Assembly (NCBI GenBank): GCA_019055375.1
Contig: JAHQIW010004769.1
Location: forward strand, 248,001-312,000
DNA from: Parelaphostrongylus tenuis
Taxonomy: Eukaryota; Nematoda; Chromadorea; Rhabditida; Metastrongylidae
Reading direction: 5' to 3'
DNA length: 64,000 bases
Part shown: piece after piece, positions 28,546 through 57,325 of the stretch
Numbering within the stretch: position 1 is the first letter of the stretch
Layout of the letters: each line of letters begins with the position of its first letter
Notes under the pieces: model-generated
What the model saw: the letters and a program-made list of their open reading frames with translations, nothing else
Databases searched by the model: none
Told to the model about the DNA's origin: nothing
Translations under genes and position numbers: made by a program

Positions 28546-31500
28546 ATGTCAGATATGATCAACACGGCATTTTTTGTCATCAGCGTAACCCCACTGTGTG
28601 CAGCTATTTTGGCCGTTCAGGTGAGTTCCACTCAACACATTAATTTAACAAACAGCACTGCCCTTTTTATAGATTGCGAAATCGGTTTGGTAATGGAAGA
28701 ATATTAGGCTGTACATGACAGATCTCTAGACTTTGGCTGTTGTGTTTTCTTGTTTGAAACTGAGCCGATCACTGCACATCTGTCGAAAACAATGATCTCC
28801 TAGTGAGAAAGCAAATGTAATGAGTTCAATAATTAAATATCATGGAGGCAAGATTATTGTAAGGAAAATTTTTATTGTCTTCTTTACTAAGAAGCGTCGC
28901 ACCGGGTTTTTTTTTTTGCTCATTTACAACGATAAGAGTATGAGAGATGAATAGATGTTTTATCATGAAGGAGAAGACGTCTGAAGGATAGTGCAGTGGT
29001 AGCGAAGCAGACCACCACGGACACAGTGCTGGCAAATTTTGCATCGGGTTCATGAAGACTCACATCTCTTCGTGGTCGAAATATTCGTAGTACCTGTCAA
29101 GGAATAGTTCAGTGCTGCAATCAATTTGAAATGCTTAGCGCAGCTGTTACAAAATCCAGTAACCGTCGACTTAGGTAGTTATGTCTTATTTTTTGTTCAA
29201 TCAATAGCGCTCGTGATTGAAGGCCAATCTTTATGCAGTATCCGAATACGCATATAAAAAGCTAGAAGACATCTGTGGGTGACGAATGTGAGAGAACGAA
29301 TCGTATGCAGAAAGCGCTGGTGTCAAAAATGCCAGGACCCGCATAGTATATGTGAAGGATACTTGCAAAACAAAATGAGGAATCAAAATGTGTCTTATTG
29401 CTTGTTCAACTCAAAGCGGTGCACTGTTTGCGTTCTACGTGGCATCAAATTTCTTTCTGAGTATTCATAGTTAACCTATTTGCGGCATTGGTTGTTTTTT
29501 CAGATTGGAAAATTGGTAGCAAAAGGACTTCGAGAAAATAAGTCTGTCTCTTTTAGAAGAATGAAGCTCGAACGGCTGACTTGTTGGACGGTTTATGGAC
29601 GTTTGTGATGGAGCCCAAGAACTCAGACGACGTCGGGTTGAGTCAACAATGGTACACAATGGATTTGTCAAAGTTTTCAGTGAGTCATATGCCGATGAAT
29701 GCGCGTTGGATATAGAAGATACTTATTGAATGACTGGCCAAGTATAGGAGAGTGTGTGACAGTTAGCGATGTCTTCTCCAATTTTTTCCTCAATTACTTC
29801 ATAGCTGATCGAAAATTCTAACATCATGTTTACCAAGATGTAGCATTTCAGAACGCAACTGTGATGCCAGTACCGTCAGCTTACAATGATCTTTCTACTA
29901 GCGACAAACTACGAGACCATGTCGGTTGGGTGTGGTACCAGACAACGGCCATCATTCGAGAACATGACATCGCTGACCGGATCGTGCTACGATTTGGTAG
30001 TGTCAACTACTACGCGATAGTGGTACGTTTAACAATTTAGTTATTTGCAAAAGATTAGAGATGGAAGGAGTGCAGAAGTTCATCACCTTCTTCGTTGCTA
30101 CACTTTCTATTCCCACTGAATCACGGATTTTGTTACTGTATAATAATAAGATATGAAGCTATTGGTGTTGATCAATGCTTGGGAAATGCACCATGGATCC
30201 GACTTCATTGCTCATCGTAAGAGGTTTTCTGGTTGCACATCCGACGTCTGCAGTGACTCTTAGTGGCCTACTGACGTACGTCAGTGCTATCCTCCCACAC
30301 ATGTTCAGTACAAATTTGCCGATCCTGGAGTTATGAAAAGCTTGGTGAGCGTGTGATGTGTGAATTGAACCAAAAACTCTCCAAGTTCTGAAGAGAAAAA
30401 GCATTGGAACATTATTCGAATCAAATTATCATCAGCGTCATCGTGCTATAGGCTCAGTTAACAAAGGAACTATGACTGACTAGTGTTGCCAAAGTCAATG
30501 GAGAGTCGCTCTACGATATGTTATCTTGCTGTGTGATAACTATTAATGAAACTCGGCAAAAAACAAGATGTTGTCCCTCTCGTTTCGAGTGTTTTCTCAA
30601 GACCACGCTCAACTTTTAAACTGCCTGATGATCATTTTTGAGCCATACTGTTATAGCGCAACTTATAGAGTCCGATACACGTGTTTCGACCATGTCAGTC
30701 TCATCAATCAAAGGGTTCTTTGTTTAGGCCAATCCTCTCGGAGGAACTCAACTTCTCATATAGAATTGGCACAGGTGAACATTTTACACAATCCAGGAAG
30801 TGAAATTATCACTGAGTGGAAAGTGTTGTACACTAGATTGCTCTTGACTGGTATCGCCAAATATATCATACCTTTCGTTTCGAGTGTTTTCTCAAGACCA
30901 CTCTAAACCTTCAATATGCCAGATGATCAATTTGAGCCATGCACGTGGTCTGTTTTAGGCCTCAAATAAAAACGATGGGTACCGCCCGACTGATGAAACC
31001 GTTAAGAAGGTAACACGTGTATCGGCCTCTATGAGTTGCCCTATAACAGACCACATGCGCGGCTCAAAAATGATTATCAGGCAAAATGTCATCAATGTAC
31101 AATCATTATCATTAGCGACCATTGTGTGTATGAACGCATCGCCAAGTGAGAGGTTCTTCATCTGAGCGGTGCCTACAAGTAGATTTGACTCAGTCAACAG
31201 CGATGAGGAGCACCATGACTAGGAAACAGCATAGACAATAGACTTGGAATTATTGCCCTTGAGGATGACGAAACGCTTCGAAAAGAAGACCGAACGAAAA
31301 GTTTCTGCCATAGATCTCGTGCTGAAGGCTTGATCTACAATGAAAATATGTTGATTGAGAAACCTGAGTTTGAAGGAAAGTCGGCTTACCATATATTTCA
31401 GTGCTTTGCGCTAGTTGTTGATTACATCAACTATTGCAAAGTGGATAATTCGGTGAAAAACGAAATGTCGCTGCTGGACAATCTTTATCATCAACAACCG

Positions 31501-41517: not shown

Positions 41518-44500
41518 ATCGTTAGTCGCCTAAACCTCATTTCACCCTTTCGCTCTGTCCGTTGATAAAAAGCGGCGCCGCGTTAGTCGCTCTTGTGGCA
41601 GTCGGCGCGATTGACATTTCAGATGGAGCACGTTATTTTTACAGCACTGTGATTTCGGGAGTTTTATCGTCACTAGAGGGATTATTACCAGTAAGTGTGA
41701 AATATGATAGAAGAGACTTCATAAGGCTAATTTTGTTGAAACGTGCCAAAGCAATCACAAAACAATGAACTATTTACCAGAAATGTTATTGCACATTGCA
41801 TGCGATGCCGTATCGTCGATAACTCAGAGATAACTTCTTATTAGTATTTAACAATGAAAGTTCGGACTTCTATATAGTTGTAGAAGAGTCTGTTTCCTAT
41901 TGTCTCATGGGTTAAGACACTGTCTCCATGTTCTTCTTAACTGAGCTTAAGACAAGATTTTATGATATTAATTATCCAAGCTGCTTGAAGTTTCGGCTGC
42001 TTCGCCTTCTTCAGAGCCTGAAAAGATTAGGTTGTCCATAACCCAATCAGTCAGACACTTTCCATTTGATTAGAAAAAATCATTAAACTCAAATTCCAAT
42101 CGCTTCAAGCACAAATCGACTAATGCATTTACTGCTTTTTATGTATCTTTCAGTGGATTAACAGCCGAAGACCACCGGGCCACATGGGCTTGTGACGTAC
42201 CAATCTTAGCGTCAAAATCGGTAATTCTCGAGCTATCGACTGAGTACAAAAGAATCGACTTTTAAGGAAATAAATATTGAACGTTAGGTGTAGGTATATT
42301 TCCTTTGACAGCGATGTGGTTTCCCCTTTAAAGCATAGAAGTTTTTTGACTAGTGTGCGTTGCTTTCGCTAAAATTATCATTATTGGAGCCATCTCTGTG
42401 TCATTTAATCATTTTATGATGATAAGGTCCTCAAAAAATTCCAATTGCTACATGAATTCTCCTACTTCCATTGCCACGTAGGCCCACACAATGTCGTGGA
42501 GAGACACGACACCGCTACTACAGTAGCTCTGTGAGACGCGACATTGCCCGGCTTGACACAAAATGTAGCACGTTGGCGTAAGCGTTTTAGAATTACTGTA
42601 GCGAGCACAAATTCAGATTGACACATCTAACAGTGTATTTGTATGAGGATGCAAGATTACTGAATGATTAATCAATAGAAAAGATTTTATGTCAATTTTT
42701 GTGGCTTTGACTTTTCCACAACTTCCTTTATTCTTTAGGCTGACCTTGTAGATATAATTTGTGTGAATCGCTATTACGGCTGGTACATTAATATGGGTGA
42801 ACTTGATTGGATCAATCAAAGTGTCTACTGGGATTTTTTCCAATGGTCAGACAAATATAAACGACCTGTTCTAGTCACCGAGTATGGCGCCGAAAGTATA
42901 CCAGGATTGAATCAGGTGAACAGATTATATAATCTTTGCTCGTGTACCATTGGCGTAGGCGCCATATCGCCCGTTCAACGCTGAACTACGGAGATTATTC
43001 CGGTCAGTGATGTGATAAATAAGTGGCTACGTTGTTATCACTTAAGAACTAAAGCATCTACTCAAGCGTCATTGGGCAGCTTGAGTCATCCATTACTGCA
43101 TAACTAAACTAATGACAACTCACTTCCTTTCATGTTTAGGTGCTTATCGAAATTTTACAACGGATCGTAGTTCAAACTAACTAGAACAGATTAACGACCA
43201 TTGCTTCTTAGGAAGATTTGATTTTCTTTATTGCGATGTACTGTTACGACCATGCAATAAATATATCAACATTTAGTTCGTAACGTCCAATAGTGTGCTA
43301 AGTAATTTGTTTCTCTTTACAGCCATTTTGAGTTTTCAAGCCCCTTTAGGTCTTCTCCCATTTTGTGAACGGGCAATAGAAGGACATCTTAAAAAATTAA
43401 TTCGAAGAATTTTTGCTGATTTTTGGTCTTCAAATGATGGCTGTCCCATAATTCCTTTTGCGCTTTGACACTTCTGTCAGTCCGATTGTTATTTATTTGA
43501 AGCGATTAATTGATCAGCGATTAAAATTACCGTGATGATCAATCATAGTACAACCATTCGCTGGGCAAAGATTCAACAACTTCCAGAAAGAATGAGGCTG
43601 GCGATCAAATCAACTAAGTCTGTGAGGTCCTCTTAAGTGCTTCTAATCCCCTCCTTCACATGCTGCTCCAGAGCGCGGAAAAGAAGCTAATCCGATGTAA
43701 CAGTATACGGGCTATACGGTGGATGTGTACCGTGAACTAGCTCACTTTCGCTAAAATGTGGCAAGTCGAGTTTGCAATAGGAGGTTGTTGGTTAAGGCAT
43801 GAGGCGTTCATCGAAACACCATTTTGCCGTAATCCATGCATTTAGATAGAAAGTGATGGTGCTACGGCAATGTCCATGTGTCTGGCTATAGCTACTAGAA
43901 CAACTTCAAGCATACCACAGCCTTTTGGGAGTAACCTGATTTGGAATGTAAAGAAAAAACTGGATAAAATGATAATGGGAAAGAATTTGTGGTCAAACCC
44001 AGAAATTGTAACATTTTATTTCATCCGTCATCACCGTGTTTTTTCACTGTGCGGATACTTCTAGCATTCAGTTCGTTTTTCGCCTTCTTCTTGAACGGCT
44101 TAGAATACTGGTTGAGCGAGTCTCCTTGCACTCTCGAGGATAGCCCTGCTGTAGCATTTCATACGACTTGTTATTGACTACCAGAGAGAACTCGGAGGTT
44201 GAGCTCGACTCCATGCGCGCCGTAACCAGCATTACAATCACTCGGCCACGGAAACTCAAAAATGTTCGTTCCAGTGCGGCGATATGATTGGACTGGACAA
44301 TATGGTTTGAGTAATATTTGTTGTTTCAGTTTACGGACCGATCGATGGAAATGCACTAATAAACAATGCAATTTCGTGCCATTATTAAAACTGACATGAA
44401 TTCGGCGACCAATTTTCTGCTACTTTCGCTGCGAACTGGAATGAAATCATACGAACTGATTGGTTCAAGTCATCGTATAGGTGTAAATTGACTCATGGTG

Positions 44501-47500
44501 GAGTTCGGATGTGTCAAATACCTATGCACATATTACTACACAACAAGCAAAAATTGCTTATTTCTTCTAATAAACTTCTCATTATCGTGGGATTGTTTTC
44601 TACGTAGAATTAAACTTTCTATCGCTTACTCTTCAGACATCGCTACCAGTATGTATCACATATGGTGCACCGCTTTAGAGCAGACGAGCGGAGGCCTATG
44701 TATTGCGTAATTTTTTAAGCCGTTCATTCTACCACATATGAGTGTTTTGTTCAACTCTTAAATGATTATGTTACTGACCTAATCAGATATCGCGTGAGGC
44801 CCACCCCCACTCCAGCACTCCGGCAGTCAATAGCGAGCGCCCTATGGAATGCCACAGCCAGTCTATCTTCGAGATTACAAGGAGACGCGCTCAACCAGTA
44901 TTCCAAGACGTTCGAGAAAAAGGTGAACAAGCGAACTGAATGTTAGAAGCGCTGGGATCCTTACAATGAAAAGAACATACTGTGAAAACGGATTAATAGA
45001 GTGTCCATCAGTTATACATAGATACTTACTTTAATACTTGGACGTTCCGTCTTCACGAATTGTGCGGACCTCAGCACATTTCCAATCGTCTCTTCTTCTC
45101 GGGATCGTCGTCCATAGTGGTGGTTTGTTTCGAGCATGGCGACTAGCGCGAGTGAATGGTCGCCCTTGGAGGCGGGTGTAACGACGTGGAGTCCACTCTA
45201 TAGTTCGCTTTGTTCCTCGGTCGTCTGATCTTCCAACCATAACTACATGAACGGCCCATCTGTGTTGCACTATCGATGTAAACTTTTCTGGATCACGAAG
45301 ATGAGACAAACTTCGGAGATCTGAGCTGCGCAAGCCACTAGATGTTGTGAGAGCCGACTAATTCTCAAAAGACATCGTTCGAGCACTCTGTGAGTTATTT
45401 GCAGTGGTTTTGACGTGGTAGAGGTATCAGCACACATCTCTGCCGCATAACAGAGCCCTGAGAGGACTGTCGAATCAAAAAGATGAGCGCGGCGTTCGGG
45501 GTCCGCTGTCTGATCGATGGCTTCTTTAAAAGGCCCGAATGCGGCCCATGCTGCTCTCCTTCTTCTGTCTAGTTCATCCTTCATGTTCTTCTCCATGTTT
45601 ATTGAAGGTCCAAGGTACGAGGTGGTCTCCTTGATCAGGGAATTGTACAATTCAAAATGCTCTCTTTCGAATAATGTATTCTTCATAAGCTGTGTCTTTG
45701 TCCTGTTTAAACGCAGCCTAATTTTTTTCCCCGTTTCATTGAGTCCCCTTGAACTTTGTATTTGCTTCATTGGTACTTTTCAAAAAGATGTCGATGTCGT
45801 CCGCGAAACGAAGATTTGATAGCAATCTGCCATCAATCCTTATACCTTTCTCCTACCATTCGACTAATTTCATCATCCGCTGCAGTGCGGTGATAAACAG
45901 CTTTGACGATACAGTGTCGCCTTGTCGAACTCCTTCTCCGTTATGTATGGAGAGGGGTCAATAGAAAAGCCGTATTTTGTGCTGCAGTTTCGACAGCAGT
46001 CTGCTAATGATCGATTATATAGTCAGATACAATCACATATAGTCTGCTAAAATGTTCAAAAGCCTTTTCGTGATCGAGATGTTAGTGGTTTACGCACGTT
46101 TCGGCTATGTCGCCCACCTCATCAAGGCCACACGCTTCATTAGTCACCATTACTGTAGTATGGACGGCGAAACTATCTCGGTCAAACTCACGTGAAATTC
46201 GATCTTCACCATTTTTCAGTCAATGGCTTGTGGTTATTATCAAACATGTAGACATAGTCTACTGAAGATAATCTGCAAGAATATTCCAAGCATTTGCGAG
46301 TTTGATACGTCAGCGGCTTCGATAGGAACGTAATGACCCCAATAAGACTTTGCGAGCTGGGATCTCCTATGATAAGCACTTTTTTTTTCCGCTCAAAAGT
46401 ATGCAAAAGGCATTTTTCATGTCAATATACTGTACATTGGAAACATCTTACCATCGCTAGGAGCGTTTAAATAAAAAAGTAGTAATTTTTTATGTCATTT
46501 TATATACTAACATGTCCTATAAATGCAAATTGTACCTCTCACATTCGACGAAATTTCGCCAAATGTTGACAAAAATGAGGATACTTAGTGAACGGGTTCT
46601 TATTCTTCACTTTTATATAAGATGTATTCAGATCTCAACAAAGACAGGAATAACATTGGGAGAATTAAGCTTGGGATTTAAAACCACGACAAAACCACGG
46701 TCATTTTGCTTGTAGGGTCGACAGGCCTCGCATTTGACTCACCACTGGGCAGCAGAGAATCAGGCGTTGACACCAATGAGTTAGACCATCCTTTATTTCC
46801 AAGTTGTTGTGTTTCATATGTCTGACATCTACGGTTTATCGCGCTATGATGAAAACACTTAGCCAAAAAGTGGGAATTATCACAAATTAGGCACCGATTT
46901 CTGAACAAACCAAAATTTTTTTTGGTTGCGCATACATTTTCGAACTCGAAGAAAAGAAGGACTGCCCAGAAGCAAAATAATATTTTGGTGGGAATTAATT
47001 TGATGGTAGAGCATATCCGAGAAGTGTCATTATTTGTCCAACTAGGAAACGAAGTGCTGCTGAAATCAAATCAAGGTATTACAGGAGCCATCAGTAGCTT
47101 TCTCTGAACAATATCAAAATGATCTCATTATTCGGACACATCAAGCATTCGACGCTCTTAGAAACTCTCATATACTCGCTGGAGAGATGATCTGGAACTT
47201 CGCGGACTTCATGACTGCTATGTGTGAGTAGACCACCAGATTATTTGATTTGAAATTAAAAATTGTCAGAAATTTTTGAAGAAATAAGGGCATTTATCAC
47301 TGATTGAGTTGTAATAGGAAAATGTAGACTACAAGGGCTTATTGTCCTCAACCGACAGGAGGTTGGGAATAGTACTAGCAATAGCAAATCAGTGACTGAC
47401 GTCGCTCTCTTCCCTGCCTGTGCGCACGCTGTTGTATGAATATTCGTTGTAACTTATTCAACTGTAGCTTCCTCAGTCAAGCTTAGCGTGCCAGTTGTTA

Positions 47501-49830: not shown

Positions 49831-50389
49831 GGTTGGAAAGAAAGTTCTCATCGTTTTATAAAACATTCAGAGTCTATGCATATGTTTGGACAATAAAAAC
49901 AACAACTATTTTCTGAATTATAGGCCATTATCACCCACCATTTTTTGCCATCGGCTCGCCACCTTTCGGATCTGAGCGAAGCACCCTCGTTCGGCTTTGA
50001 ATCAAACAACTCTTGACATGCTTCTTCAAGTTCATCAAAAGATTCAAATTGGTGACCTTCCAAAAAGTGTTGCATTGATCGGAAAAGGCCGTAATCAGAT
50101 GGAGCAACGTCCGGACTATAGGCTGGATGCGGTGGAATCTCAATTCCGTCCAATTCCTCAAACTTTGCCTTGGTCATTTTGGCTGTGTGTGGTTTTGCGT
50201 TGTTTTGCTGAAACAAAGAAACAAACAAACGTTATTGCTCCCTGAACAATTCCATTCTGCAGCGGATATAGGCAAATTATATATCAATAGATGCGCAAGA
50301 AGTAGACCTTTCAAATGATATGAAAATCACACACTATTCATGCGAAAAACAACATTCCAATCGGAGCGATAAAAATTTTCTTTCCAACT
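49831..50389 (-). mobile_element. Internally deleted mariner element with both TIRs
   Basis: TA-flanked ends: GGTTGGAAAGAAAGTTCTCA at the left and the reverse complement of TTTTCTTTCCAACT at the right, about 24 bp of imperfect TIR. Between them the minus strand encodes only the C-terminal third of the transposase: FQQNNAKPHTAKMTKAKFEE, PHPAYSPDVAPSDYGLFRSM, then a relaxed end. The second catalytic D is N (QQNNA) and the third is retained (APSDY). The N-terminal half is missing, so the element is non-autonomous. It starts 155 bp after the beta-glucuronidase stop. Confidence 0.85.
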
Positions 50390-51267: not shown

Positions 51268-51567
51268 TCTTCATAGATAAAGGATAAAGGATAAAGCTCA
51301 CGGCGTTGATCAATCTCTGAGGGATGCGCCATGCATTCGTCTTCAATTTTTGATTTCGCCTGAGGTGATTGAATGACTCGCGGTGGCCTCCTGCTATGCC
51401 GAGTCAGTGCTGCTTATCCCCCTATACAAGTCTGAGACCAGCCTAGTAATATTTACCGACCCGGAGGGATGGATGGCGTGGTGAGCCAGGAGCGCAAGAT
51501 AAGACCATTGACCTCGTTAGCGGCACAGAGCACCTCTAACCACTATGCCACATGAGCTCTTTTTCTC
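51268..51567 (-). repeat. SINE-B copy with TTTATCC tail
   Basis: Minus strand: head CATGTGGCATAGTGGTTAGA, GGTCAATGG, GGCTCACCACGCCATCCATC, CAGACTTG, GCAGCACTGACTCGG, GCGAGTCATT and GATTGATCAACGCCG, ending in a run of TTTATCC units. Confidence 0.85.
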
Positions 51568-52565: not shown

Positions 52566-53104
52566 TCAATGCGATCGCTGAATGGACGGAGCACGCTCCG
52601 GCGATGTAATGGTTTTCTGATGAATTTCGGATTTTTGTTGACACTAAAGAAGTTTTGTTTTCTGTAAATGGAAGAATTCGATAGAAAAGACTTTAATAAG
52701 TCTATCAGTAGTAGAAAAAACGTCAAAGCAACCTTCAAAAACCTCACATTTTTAAGAGACAAACCAGATACGAAAGGGTCATTATTCGAACTGGTACTTG
52801 ATGTCCTTATGCTATTTTATTCATATTCAATCATATTAGAATGATACTTATCATTCACCTTTTACTGAAGTAAAATATCATGACACAAACCTTCCACTTT
52901 TCATGTCCTCTCACTAAATAAAATGCCAAAAAGTAATCATAGTTACTGTTTTTCTTCTTTAAGCAAAACACGAGGTGTTTATAAAATAATCAGTAATCAT
53001 AGTAATCATAATCAAATCAGTAATCATAGTTATCAATATGCAAGCCAATAACTAGTTTGGCAAAGTTAATGCTGTTCACTATATGTGATGCCACTTTTTC
53101 AATG

Positions 53105-53119
53105 ACTTTCAGTAGTTTT
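53105..53119 (+). repeat. Left 15-bp direct repeat (target-site duplication) of hammerhead element 1
   Basis: ACTTTCAGTAGTTTT, repeated exactly at 53667-53681 on the other side of the element. Confidence 0.8.
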
Positions 53120-53290
53120 TTTTTTTCTATCGACTGCTTTTTTTACAGACCCGCTCAAAATGATTTAATCTGATAAGGATATGACATATTTTGAGCCATA
53201 GGTCTAGTGCTATATAGGGTGCTTAATTTTACTCGGCGTCGGTTCCTTTAGAGGATTGTTTACCTCAAGGGATCGACGGAACCGAGGGAG

Positions 53291-53340
53291 GGTGCTACTG
53301 ATGAGTCCCAATAGGACGAAATAGGCGCCTATATAGCACT
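53291..53340 (+). ncRNA. Hammerhead ribozyme, type I, copy 1
   Basis: Every core element is present. Stem I GGUGCUA (53291-53297) pairs with UAGCACU (53334-53340). Then CUGAUGA (53298-53304), stem II GUCC/GGAC with loop CAAUA (53305-53317), GAA (53318-53320), stem III AUAG-GCGC-CUAU (53321-53332) and A17 at 53333. This is a minimal type I hammerhead with a very short stem III, as in animal retrozymes. Cleavage predicted after 53333. Confidence 0.9.
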
Positions 53341-53572
53341 AGACCTATGGCTCAAAATATGTCATATCCTTATCAGATTAAATCATTTTGAGCGGGTCTG
53401 TAAAAAAAGCAGTCGATAGAAGAAGTATAGTTCATTTTAAAAGCCGTAAGCTCGACTGCCGGTCACCACAAAGTCAGGTAATAACATCATCCTACTTTGG
53501 GTGCTTAATTTTACTCGGCGTCGGTTCCTTTAGAGGATTGTTTACCTCAAGGGATCGACGGAACCGAGGGAG

Positions 53573-53622
53573 GGTGCTACTGATGAGTCCCAATAGGACG
53601 AAATAGGCGCCTATATAGCACT
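53573..53622 (+). ncRNA. Hammerhead ribozyme, type I, copy 2
   Basis: Base-for-base identical to the copy 282 bp upstream: stem I GGUGCUA at 53573, core CUGAUGA at 53580, return strand UAGCACU ending at 53622. Predicted cleavage after 53615. Confidence 0.9.
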
Positions 53623-53703
53623 AGACCTATGGCTCAAAATATGTCATATCCTTATCAGATTAAATCACTTTCAGTAGTTTTCATTATTATTAGTATTTCT
53701 TAC

Positions 53704-54025
53704 CACTGAATAGCGCATGTGACACAGTAGTTAAAGGTGCTATGCGTCGCAAACAAGGTCGATGGCTCGATCTCGCGCTCGTGGCTCACCAAACCACTCA
53801 TCTCTTCAGAGTCAGTAAATTGGTACCGGGCTGATCGCAGACTTCTCTGGAAAGATAAGCAGCACTGGTTCGATTCAACGGTAGGCCGTCGCGAGTCATT
53901 GTAAAGGCAGGCCAGATATGCATTCAACTACTTTAAACCACGTTAAACAGTGAAGACGATTACATTTCGCATCCGTCAGGAATTTATCAAAGCCGAGAGC
54001 TTTACTCTTTGTCCTTTTGATAGCG
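53704..54025 (+). repeat. SINE-B copy
   Basis: Diverged head GCATGTGACACAGTAGTTAA with GGCTCGATCTCG as B box. Body with GTAAATTGGTACCGGGCTGA, AAGCAGCACTGG and GCGAGTCATTGTAAAGG; tail GCCGAGAGCTTTACTCTTTG. It starts 22 bp after the hammerhead element's right-hand direct repeat. Confidence 0.8.
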
Positions 54026-56033: not shown

Positions 56034-56111
56034 CTGTCACTGCTTATTCTTAACCATTCAAAAGTTCGACTTTCTATAAACCTCGGCATAATCAATTGTT
56101 ATATGACAATC

Positions 56112-56930
56112 GAGAAAACTTATCTTGATTAGCTGACGCGAGGTTGGTAAATTAGTCGTAGAAATTCGGCTGACGTTTCGGCGACCCGCCTTCTTCAGAG
56201 CCTGGACGTATATAGTATTAGTCTATTTGAATGATCGGATGGTCTTATTTATATGCTGCCTAGGTCACGTTAGAAGATCAAACGAAGAAAGGGCGCGAGA
56301 TCTCGCGTGATGGTGACGCACTCGTCCTTCCGATTCATTTCGGGGTTTTGGGCGTTTATCCAAAATGCCTCAAGAGATTTCTGCGTGGATGTATTTTGAT
56401 TCCTGCGCTAGAATTGTGACAGTCACATCAAAATCCTTGTTGTTGTGTTTTTGTGCCCTATGTAAACCTAAAGGTTTGGTTTTATTTATTTTAGAACTAC
56501 CTACATGTTCTTTTATGCGGATGAAAAGTGGTATAGATAGTAAATCTAAAATAGGTAAATCCAAATATTTTGGTTTACATAGAGCGCAAAAACACAGCAA
56601 CCAAGATTTTGATGTGACTGTCACAATTCTAGCGCAGAAACCAAAAAACATCCACACGCAAATTTTTTTATGGCATTTTGGATAAACGCCCAAAATCTCT
56701 AAATGAATCGGAAGGACGAGTGCGTCACTATCTCACGAGATCTCGCGCCCTTTCTTCGTTTGATCTTCTAACCTGACCTAGGCGGCATATAAATAAGACC
56801 ATCCGAATCATTCTAATAGACTAATACTACATACGCCCAGGTTCTGAAAAAGGCGGTTGCCGAAATGTCAGCCGAACTTCTACGACTAATTTACCAAACC
56901 TCGCGTCAGCTAATCAAGATAAGTTTTCTC
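56112..56930. repeat. 819-bp near-perfect palindrome (fold-back element)
   Basis: The left arm starts GAGAAAACTTATCTTGATTA and the right arm ends with its reverse complement. The arms stay similar through TAATTTACC, CGTTAGAAGATCAAACGAAG, GATCTCGCG, TTGGATAAACGCCC and GTGACAGTCACATCAAAA, up to a centre near 56521. Overlapping ORFs on the two strands encode near-identical peptides because of the symmetry and are not genes. Transcription would give a hairpin of about 400 bp. Confidence 0.9.
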
Positions 56931-57007
56931 AATATTCTAAACCAGTTGATGCCGAGTTGTATCATATATGAACTCTGGTGGGGCATTTTGGTCAAGATAT
57001 CTCAATA

Positions 57008-57325
57008 ACAGGAGCGCATGTGGCGCAGTGGTTAGAGGTGCCCTGCGTCGCACACGAGGTCAATGGTTCGATCTCGCGCTCATGGCCCACCAAGCCATCC
57101 ATCCCTCCGGGGTTGGTAAATTGGTACCAGGCAGGTCTCAGACTTGTCTGGGAGGATAAGCAGCACTGACTCGGTTCAGCGGGAGGCCACCGCGAGTCAT
57201 TGTAAAGGCCAGATATGCATTCAGTCACCTCAAACGAAGTTAGAAATTGAAGTCGAATGCATGGCGCATCCCTAAGGATTGATCAACGCCGAGAGCTTTA
57301 TCCTTTATCCTTTTATCTCAATAAA
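57008..57325 (+). repeat. SINE-B copy, most complete
   Basis: Head GAGCGCATGTGGCGCAGTGG, B box TGGTTCGATCTCG, body with CCACCAAGCCATCCATCCCT, GTAAATTGGTACCAGGCAGG, GCAGCACTGACTCGG, GCGAGTCATTGTAAAGGCC and GATTGATCAACGCCGAGAGC, ending TTTATCCTTTATCC. Confidence 0.9.

Follow-up and report, generated by a model that had tools for sequence, protein, structure and literature searches.

Head-to-head insertions of a hammerhead retrozyme and of Penelope-like elements carry matching scars in one genome

Background

The animal non-LTR retrozymes described by Cervera and de la Pena in 2020 (PMC7229834) have type I hammerheads with a stem III in a non-coding unit of ~170–400 nt, are arranged in head-to-tail tandems, have a GC content <50% and target site duplications (TSDs) >4 bp, and occur in genomes that also carry Penelope-like elements (PLEs). 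PLEs are named there only as a strong candidate for the helper of animal retrozymes, and in that description and a 2024 review (PMC11722881) LINEs or PLEs figure only as possible helpers. The literature searched, at the level of titles and abstracts, yielded no head-to-head retrozyme insertions and no direct evidence for a helper.

The PLEs themselves occur as head-to-head inverted copies with TSDs, one end of which may carry a tail; they have two internal reverse-transcription starts, and both target strands are cut and extended (PMC11167929, PMC3846280). An earlier description of head-to-head copies in which one inverted repeat bears a tail invoked self-priming (PMC3846280). Purified PLE protein cleaves both target strands, extends them and begins synthesis at two adjacent sites inside the RNA, which accounts for the tail of genomic copies; the commonest start lies 111–118 nt into the ORF and the hammerhead cut at +26, so that synthesis begins ~85–92 nt past the cut (PMC11167929). 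In those experiments with purified PAc the start sites did not differ between strands, nor did the authors see any homology of primer and start site (PMC11167929).

A retrozyme insertion in the window

The window (the whole stretch of 64,000 nucleotides analysed here) contains a 547-bp insertion at positions 53120–53666, flanked by exact copies of the 15-bp direct repeat ACTTTCAGTAGTTTT (53105–53119 and 53667–53681). Within it are two complete type I hammerheads on the plus strand (53290–53341 and 53572–53623), identical letter for letter, whose cores (53298–53323 and 53580–53605) are spaced by 282 bp. An initial annotation had recognized this hammerhead pair and the bounding repeats, and both stand; its description of the element missed the 97-bp left end, 53122–53218 on the minus strand, which is a 99% inverted copy of 53328–53424 and makes the insertion a head-to-head palindrome. 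The overlooked inverted arm carries most of the mechanistic information.

We number the unit from the first base after the predicted hammerhead cut (predicted cleavage sites are 53333/53334 and 53615/53616). The left arm then runs from an outer end at unit position ~91 (88 if only exact matches are counted), separated from the TSD by two extra T, down to position 277. The right arm (53217–53666, plus strand, overlapping the left arm by 2 nt) comprises one partial unit (166–282), one full unit and 51 nt (1–51), and its outer end is at position 51. From the centre of the insertion to either flank, the arms read in the hammerhead sense. The sole complete 282-nt unit, from predicted cut to predicted cut (53334–53615, plus strand), has a fold z of -4.9, and the two direct copies within the insertion are 97% identical across 183 nt. 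The GC content of the unit is 0.429 and its longest stop-free run, read on a trimer, is 74 codons; having no long open frame, the unit lacks the RT plus GIY-YIG ORF of an autonomous Penelope-like element.

The window holds other repeats as well. Diverged dispersed repeats lie at 53712–54010, 57011–57306 and 51286–51559, one of them directly 3' of the retrozyme; we take their heads to resemble a tRNA, and they are possibly a SINE family. A DDE transposase fragment at 49848–50231 (minus strand), presumably mariner-like, matches PF13358 below the cut-off.

The hammerhead ribozymes

The 26-nt core with up to 3 mismatches is matched twice in the window, and 100 shuffles give no match. Over the whole window no Rfam family reaches its gathering score; at a relaxed threshold both hammerheads are full-length matches to Hammerhead_1 (RF00163), the type I model that had been proposed as a check, with 29.5 bits and E 5e-5, short of its gathering score of 34. 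The predicted fold can form the core, a stem I of 7 bp including a G-U pair, a stem II of 4 bp and a stem III of 4 bp with a GCGC loop. At -12.8 kcal/mol it is not the predicted minimum for the hammerhead on its own, because a competing hairpin has a lower energy (MFE -14.5). We considered purifying selection on the hammerhead and found the case unconvincing: a count of events (9 in 49 nt, 69 in 126 nt) gives p 4e-4, but one of distinct changes (8 against 32) gives p 0.17. The pattern CTGATGAGTCCN5GGACGAAA was also seen in at least 120 stretches of viral contigs (L031–L110 and further loci), some with 2 or 3 copies, and a blastn search against phages gave no match.

The retrozyme family and its host

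Across the 481.5 Mb and 5,105 contigs of the genome scanned, the 26-nt core with up to 2 mismatches has 2,844 matches and the reversed-pattern control none, and in tandem copies the cores are ~280–285 bp apart. Among the best 40 of 1,539 candidates the window unit has 199 matches, and four full-length units elsewhere are identical to it. These copies across the genome exclude confinement of the repeat to one locus and bear out its designation as retrozyme-like; with the dispersed, mostly TSD-flanked insertions described below, the identical units likewise uphold the suggestion that it has been recently mobile. A 22-mer that we take to be the nematode SL1 leader has 102 exact copies in the genome, many of them within a 568-bp array, so the host is, judged by these copies, most likely a nematode, in agreement with the initial annotation.

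Like the animal non-LTR retrozymes, the family has a complete core with stem III, tandem repeats in the range of ~150–450 bp in many copies, a GC content <50%, no coding capacity and TSDs >4 bp. It does not match the plant LTR retrozymes, which have a type III hammerhead and a 4-bp TSD; here the hammerhead is of type I and the modal TSD is 12 bp. It differs from the animal elements as presented in PMC7229834 in its head-to-head arrays with two fixed cDNA starts, which go unmentioned in that account. The main texts of three retrozyme papers (PMC7229834, PMC7761336 and PMC11722881) contain no mention of nematodes; the element is thus a retrozyme, of a known kind, in a phylum that does not figure in those texts.

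Arms and target sites of the sampled insertions

The insertions compared here are that of the window and 39 further stretches. The resulting 40 sites are young copies close to the window unit, because they were taken from the best 40 of 1,539 candidates. Two, L185 (a mirror of L184) and L189 (which has palindromic flanks), were dropped before TSDs, haplotypes and ends were counted, which leaves 38, and the plus-strand pieces of L152 that abut a contig end were left out. In 26 of the 38 the left arm is minus and the right arm plus, the reverse order does not occur (0/38), and the other 12 have a single arm. The same polarity is seen among neighbouring cores within 2 kb (first 100 cores among the matches listed), with 23 '-+', 9 '--', 6 '++' and 0 '+-' pairs. 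At the central junctions of L158, L170 and L184 there is filler between the arms that looks copied from a nearby unit, presumably akin to the products of polymerase-theta-type end joining.

An exact TSD of at least 11 bp is present at 27/38 sites and at none of 304 left-right pairs taken from different sites. The lengths are 11 bp (2 sites), 12 bp (14), 13 bp (6), 14 bp (3) and 15 bp (2). The remaining 11/38 sites have no TSD of ≥11 bp in the range searched, the best being 8 and 9 bp at L155 and L157; a wider search range gives 12 bp at L182. Taken over 25 of the 27 TSD sites, the targets have a motif AAN[TSD]NTT, with A in 19/25 at -3 and at -2, and T in 18/25 at +2 and 14/25 at +3.

Inverted arms between TSDs are also what a foldback or MITE-like DNA transposon would leave, in which case the arms would be terminal inverted repeats and the hammerheads a matter of chance. 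However, the arms range from 40 to 3,877 nt and consist of whole or partial 282-nt units, the outer ends of the two arms differ, and single-arm copies exist, so that we give this explanation almost no credence. Spread as satellite DNA by unequal crossing-over, compounded by assembly artefacts such as hairpin contigs, could account for long arrays like that of L161, with 19 full or partial units, and two cases (L184/L185 and L189) do have the mirrored look of artefacts. Against it, the TSD-flanked sites are dispersed, and when the flanks of L181 are joined they align across the joint to an unoccupied copy of a repeat in the window (30622–30959, 68%); we consider a satellite origin highly improbable.

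Two start zones

The outer ends of the arms fall into two zones of the unit. P1, which would be the commonest first start of reverse transcription, is at unit 36–46 (53369–53379, plus strand, in the window) and is mostly unpaired in the predicted circular fold; P2, the second start zone, is at unit 87–93 (53420–53426, plus strand) and adjoins a predicted 6-nt apical loop. With TSD-trimmed ends, 19 of the 22 two-arm sites that have a TSD combine one P1 end (32–51) with one P2 end (87–103), the exceptions being L172, L174 and L180; 17 of 19 P2 ends are at 87–93. If ends are instead set by strict exact match, one arm stops at 21–52 and the other at 74–104 in 24 of the 26 two-arm sites, and the lowest ends of the P2 group are those of L174 (74; an irregular site, with ends 47/74) and L175 (79). 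Two P1 ends occur together only at L172 and L180, and two P2 ends at 0/26. Single arms end at P1 in 10 of 12 cases (35–49), except at L152 (88, truncated by the contig end) and L187 (159). Microhomology between target end and RNA averages 2.1 at P1 and 1.4 at P2 against 0.56 for random pairing, values that are partly inflated by the choice of the maximal TSD.

Penelope-like elements in the same genome

PLEs are abundant in this genome. GIY-YIG has at least 150 matches, and the open frames among the matches listed reach 902 aa, a length listed for C87; an RT fragment of the C87 copy matches RVT_1, the tandem units are ~2,985 bp long, and the PLE-type minimal hammerhead core has 3,057 matches (control 0). 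Neighbouring GIY-YIG matches within 6 kb are arranged '-+' 20 times, '--' once, '++' once and '+-' never among the 150 listed.

We examined ten PLE copies that had been picked as head-to-head and not for their ends or TSDs. Measured from the predicted PLE hammerhead cut, every one of them ends at +56 to +66 on one side and at +101 to +118 on the other; these ends were read in 126- or 221-base pieces placed by EN-to-end distances, in which an end lying outside would be invisible, and all 20 lie inside. Eight of the ten have an exact TSD of 12–14 bp and two only 8-bp matches. Thus the Penelope-type signature, head-to-head with a tail at the P2 end and none at the P1 end, is present at 24/26 two-arm retrozyme sites and 10/10 PLE sites. 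P1 of the PLEs is further from the cut (+56–66) than that of the retrozyme (32–51). The local PLE sites, which are few, fit the retrozyme target motif only partly. Unlike the PLEs, the retrozyme does not code for protein, has a hammerhead with stem III and a unit of 282 nt rather than ~2,985 bp, and has no significant sequence in common with them. We rejected sequence kinship with the PLE region past the cut, where 118/500 and 423/500 shuffles score as high as the actual comparison; the helper is therefore inferred from the insertion signature only.

The window has PLE remains of its own. A 48-bp stub of a PLE end with a P1-type end (52944–52991, minus strand), bracketed by exact 12-bp repeats AGTAATCATAGT (52932–52943 and 52992–53003), seems to be a PLE insertion with a single arm, ~100 bp away from the retrozyme. 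An old head-to-head remnant at 56109–56933 has inverted arms and PLE-type hammerhead cores at 56198 (minus) and ~56844 (plus), and by eye its frames resemble GIY-YIG (no Pfam match); a further PLE-type core is at 42014 (minus).

A LINE, for example of RTE type, might instead move the retrozyme, with the palindromes as products of ordinary twin priming. A minus-strand fragment at 45270–45779 in the window, named by its translation, does in our reading resemble RTE proteins (no Pfam match). In LINE-1, however, the position of the second start is variable and only a minority of insertions are inverted, whereas in the retrozyme both starts are in fixed zones and 26 of the 38 sites are inverted. 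What the two have in common is that in twin priming, too, the second target strand primes on the RNA and leaves an inversion between TSDs (PMC2837659). Since the outer ends keep to two zones, inversion prevails and the same two-ended signature recurs on every PLE copy examined, we regard a LINE as an unlikely helper.

On balance we consider it likely that the element in the window represents a single insertion of a nematode non-LTR retrozyme, present in many copies and recently active, and that PLE machinery, priming on both of the cut target strands, moves this retrozyme in trans. By analogy with known animal retrozymes, tandem transcripts would be cut by their own type I hammerheads, and the resulting 282-nt monomers would then be closed into circles. 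The PLE protein, with its RT and GIY-YIG, would bind the RNA just past the hammerhead cut and cleave the target strands ~12 bp apart, a distance suggested by the TSDs. One target 3' end would then prime cDNA synthesis at P1 and the other at P2, both on RNA of the same polarity. The RT, presumably that of the PLE, would run part way or several times round the template to give arms of the shape and with the ends observed. Joining of the cDNA 3' ends by a presumed repair route, with the microhomology or filler seen at the junctions, would yield the TSD-flanked head-to-head array, and extension of one strand only would yield a single-arm array that starts at P1.

The RNA template

None of 64 inner ends is at the cleavage joint (282, 1 or 2), whereas eight are at 274–278, in stem III, where 1.1 are expected. 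An apparent pile-up at position 1, which would have signified run-off of reverse transcription at a ribozyme-cleaved 5' end, was a BLAST query-boundary artefact that disappeared when the hits were extended, and we rejected run-off. The lack of cDNA ends at the joint indicates RNA that was either uncut or joined at this point, which excludes linear cleaved monomers as templates.

Sequence variants tend to be common to a whole insertion. Marker 87C is concordant within the insertion at 24/24 sites (12/12 with both arms; permutation mean 8.6, maximum 18, over all sites), 199G at 27/30 (discordant at 3/30; 14/16 with both arms; permutation mean 11.2 over all sites) and 210insC at 27/31 (discordant at 4/31; 13/17 with both arms; permutation mean 11.0 over all sites). 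Full units differ on average by 1.6 within and 4.7 between sites (40 sites). Seven site-private variants are in all covering units, three of these on both arms, and a further 90 are confined to part of the units. Some of the discordant markers and partial private variants may be due to hit-edge effects and later mutation, but more than one template, or conversion, is also possible. Mostly one template per insertion fits these data, and for most insertions the haplotypes fit one circular monomer.

Alternatively, PLE machinery could copy linear multimeric transcripts, and circles play no part. A multimer would equally allow arms that cross the 282/1 joint, homogeneous parent arrays could mimic common haplotypes, and in vitro PLE insertion is independent of hammerhead cleavage, with unprocessed RNA as the main substrate (PMC11167929). 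On the other hand, haplotypes are mostly common to both arms, and seven private variants occur in all covering units as a monomeric circle predicts. A linear template seems to us a tentative possibility of some weight, and a circular template is less certain than PLE-driven insertion itself. We lean somewhat towards each insertion having come from a single circular RNA, on which a bound pair of PLE proteins would cut both strands, each priming at a different start site as the other is occupied, after which both RTs would roll round the same circle. P1/P1 sites would then be rare and P2/P2 sites absent because the other start site is taken, and the arms would have a common haplotype because the circle is common to both.

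Conclusions

Accounts of how animal retrozymes move have gone no further than naming possible helpers. In one genome the scars of a retrozyme and of PLEs match in three respects, namely head-to-head polarity, two end zones that are each used once per insertion, and a TSD of ~12 bp, and this match reduces the question of the helper to one in vitro experiment. The rule that P1 and P2 each supply one end also places a new constraint on PLE insertion, since the enzymology reported in PMC11167929 found no difference between strands in their starts. If each insertion does come from a single circle, circular RNAs would be direct templates of genomic insertion in animals, and PLEs would insert themselves through the same ordered double priming.
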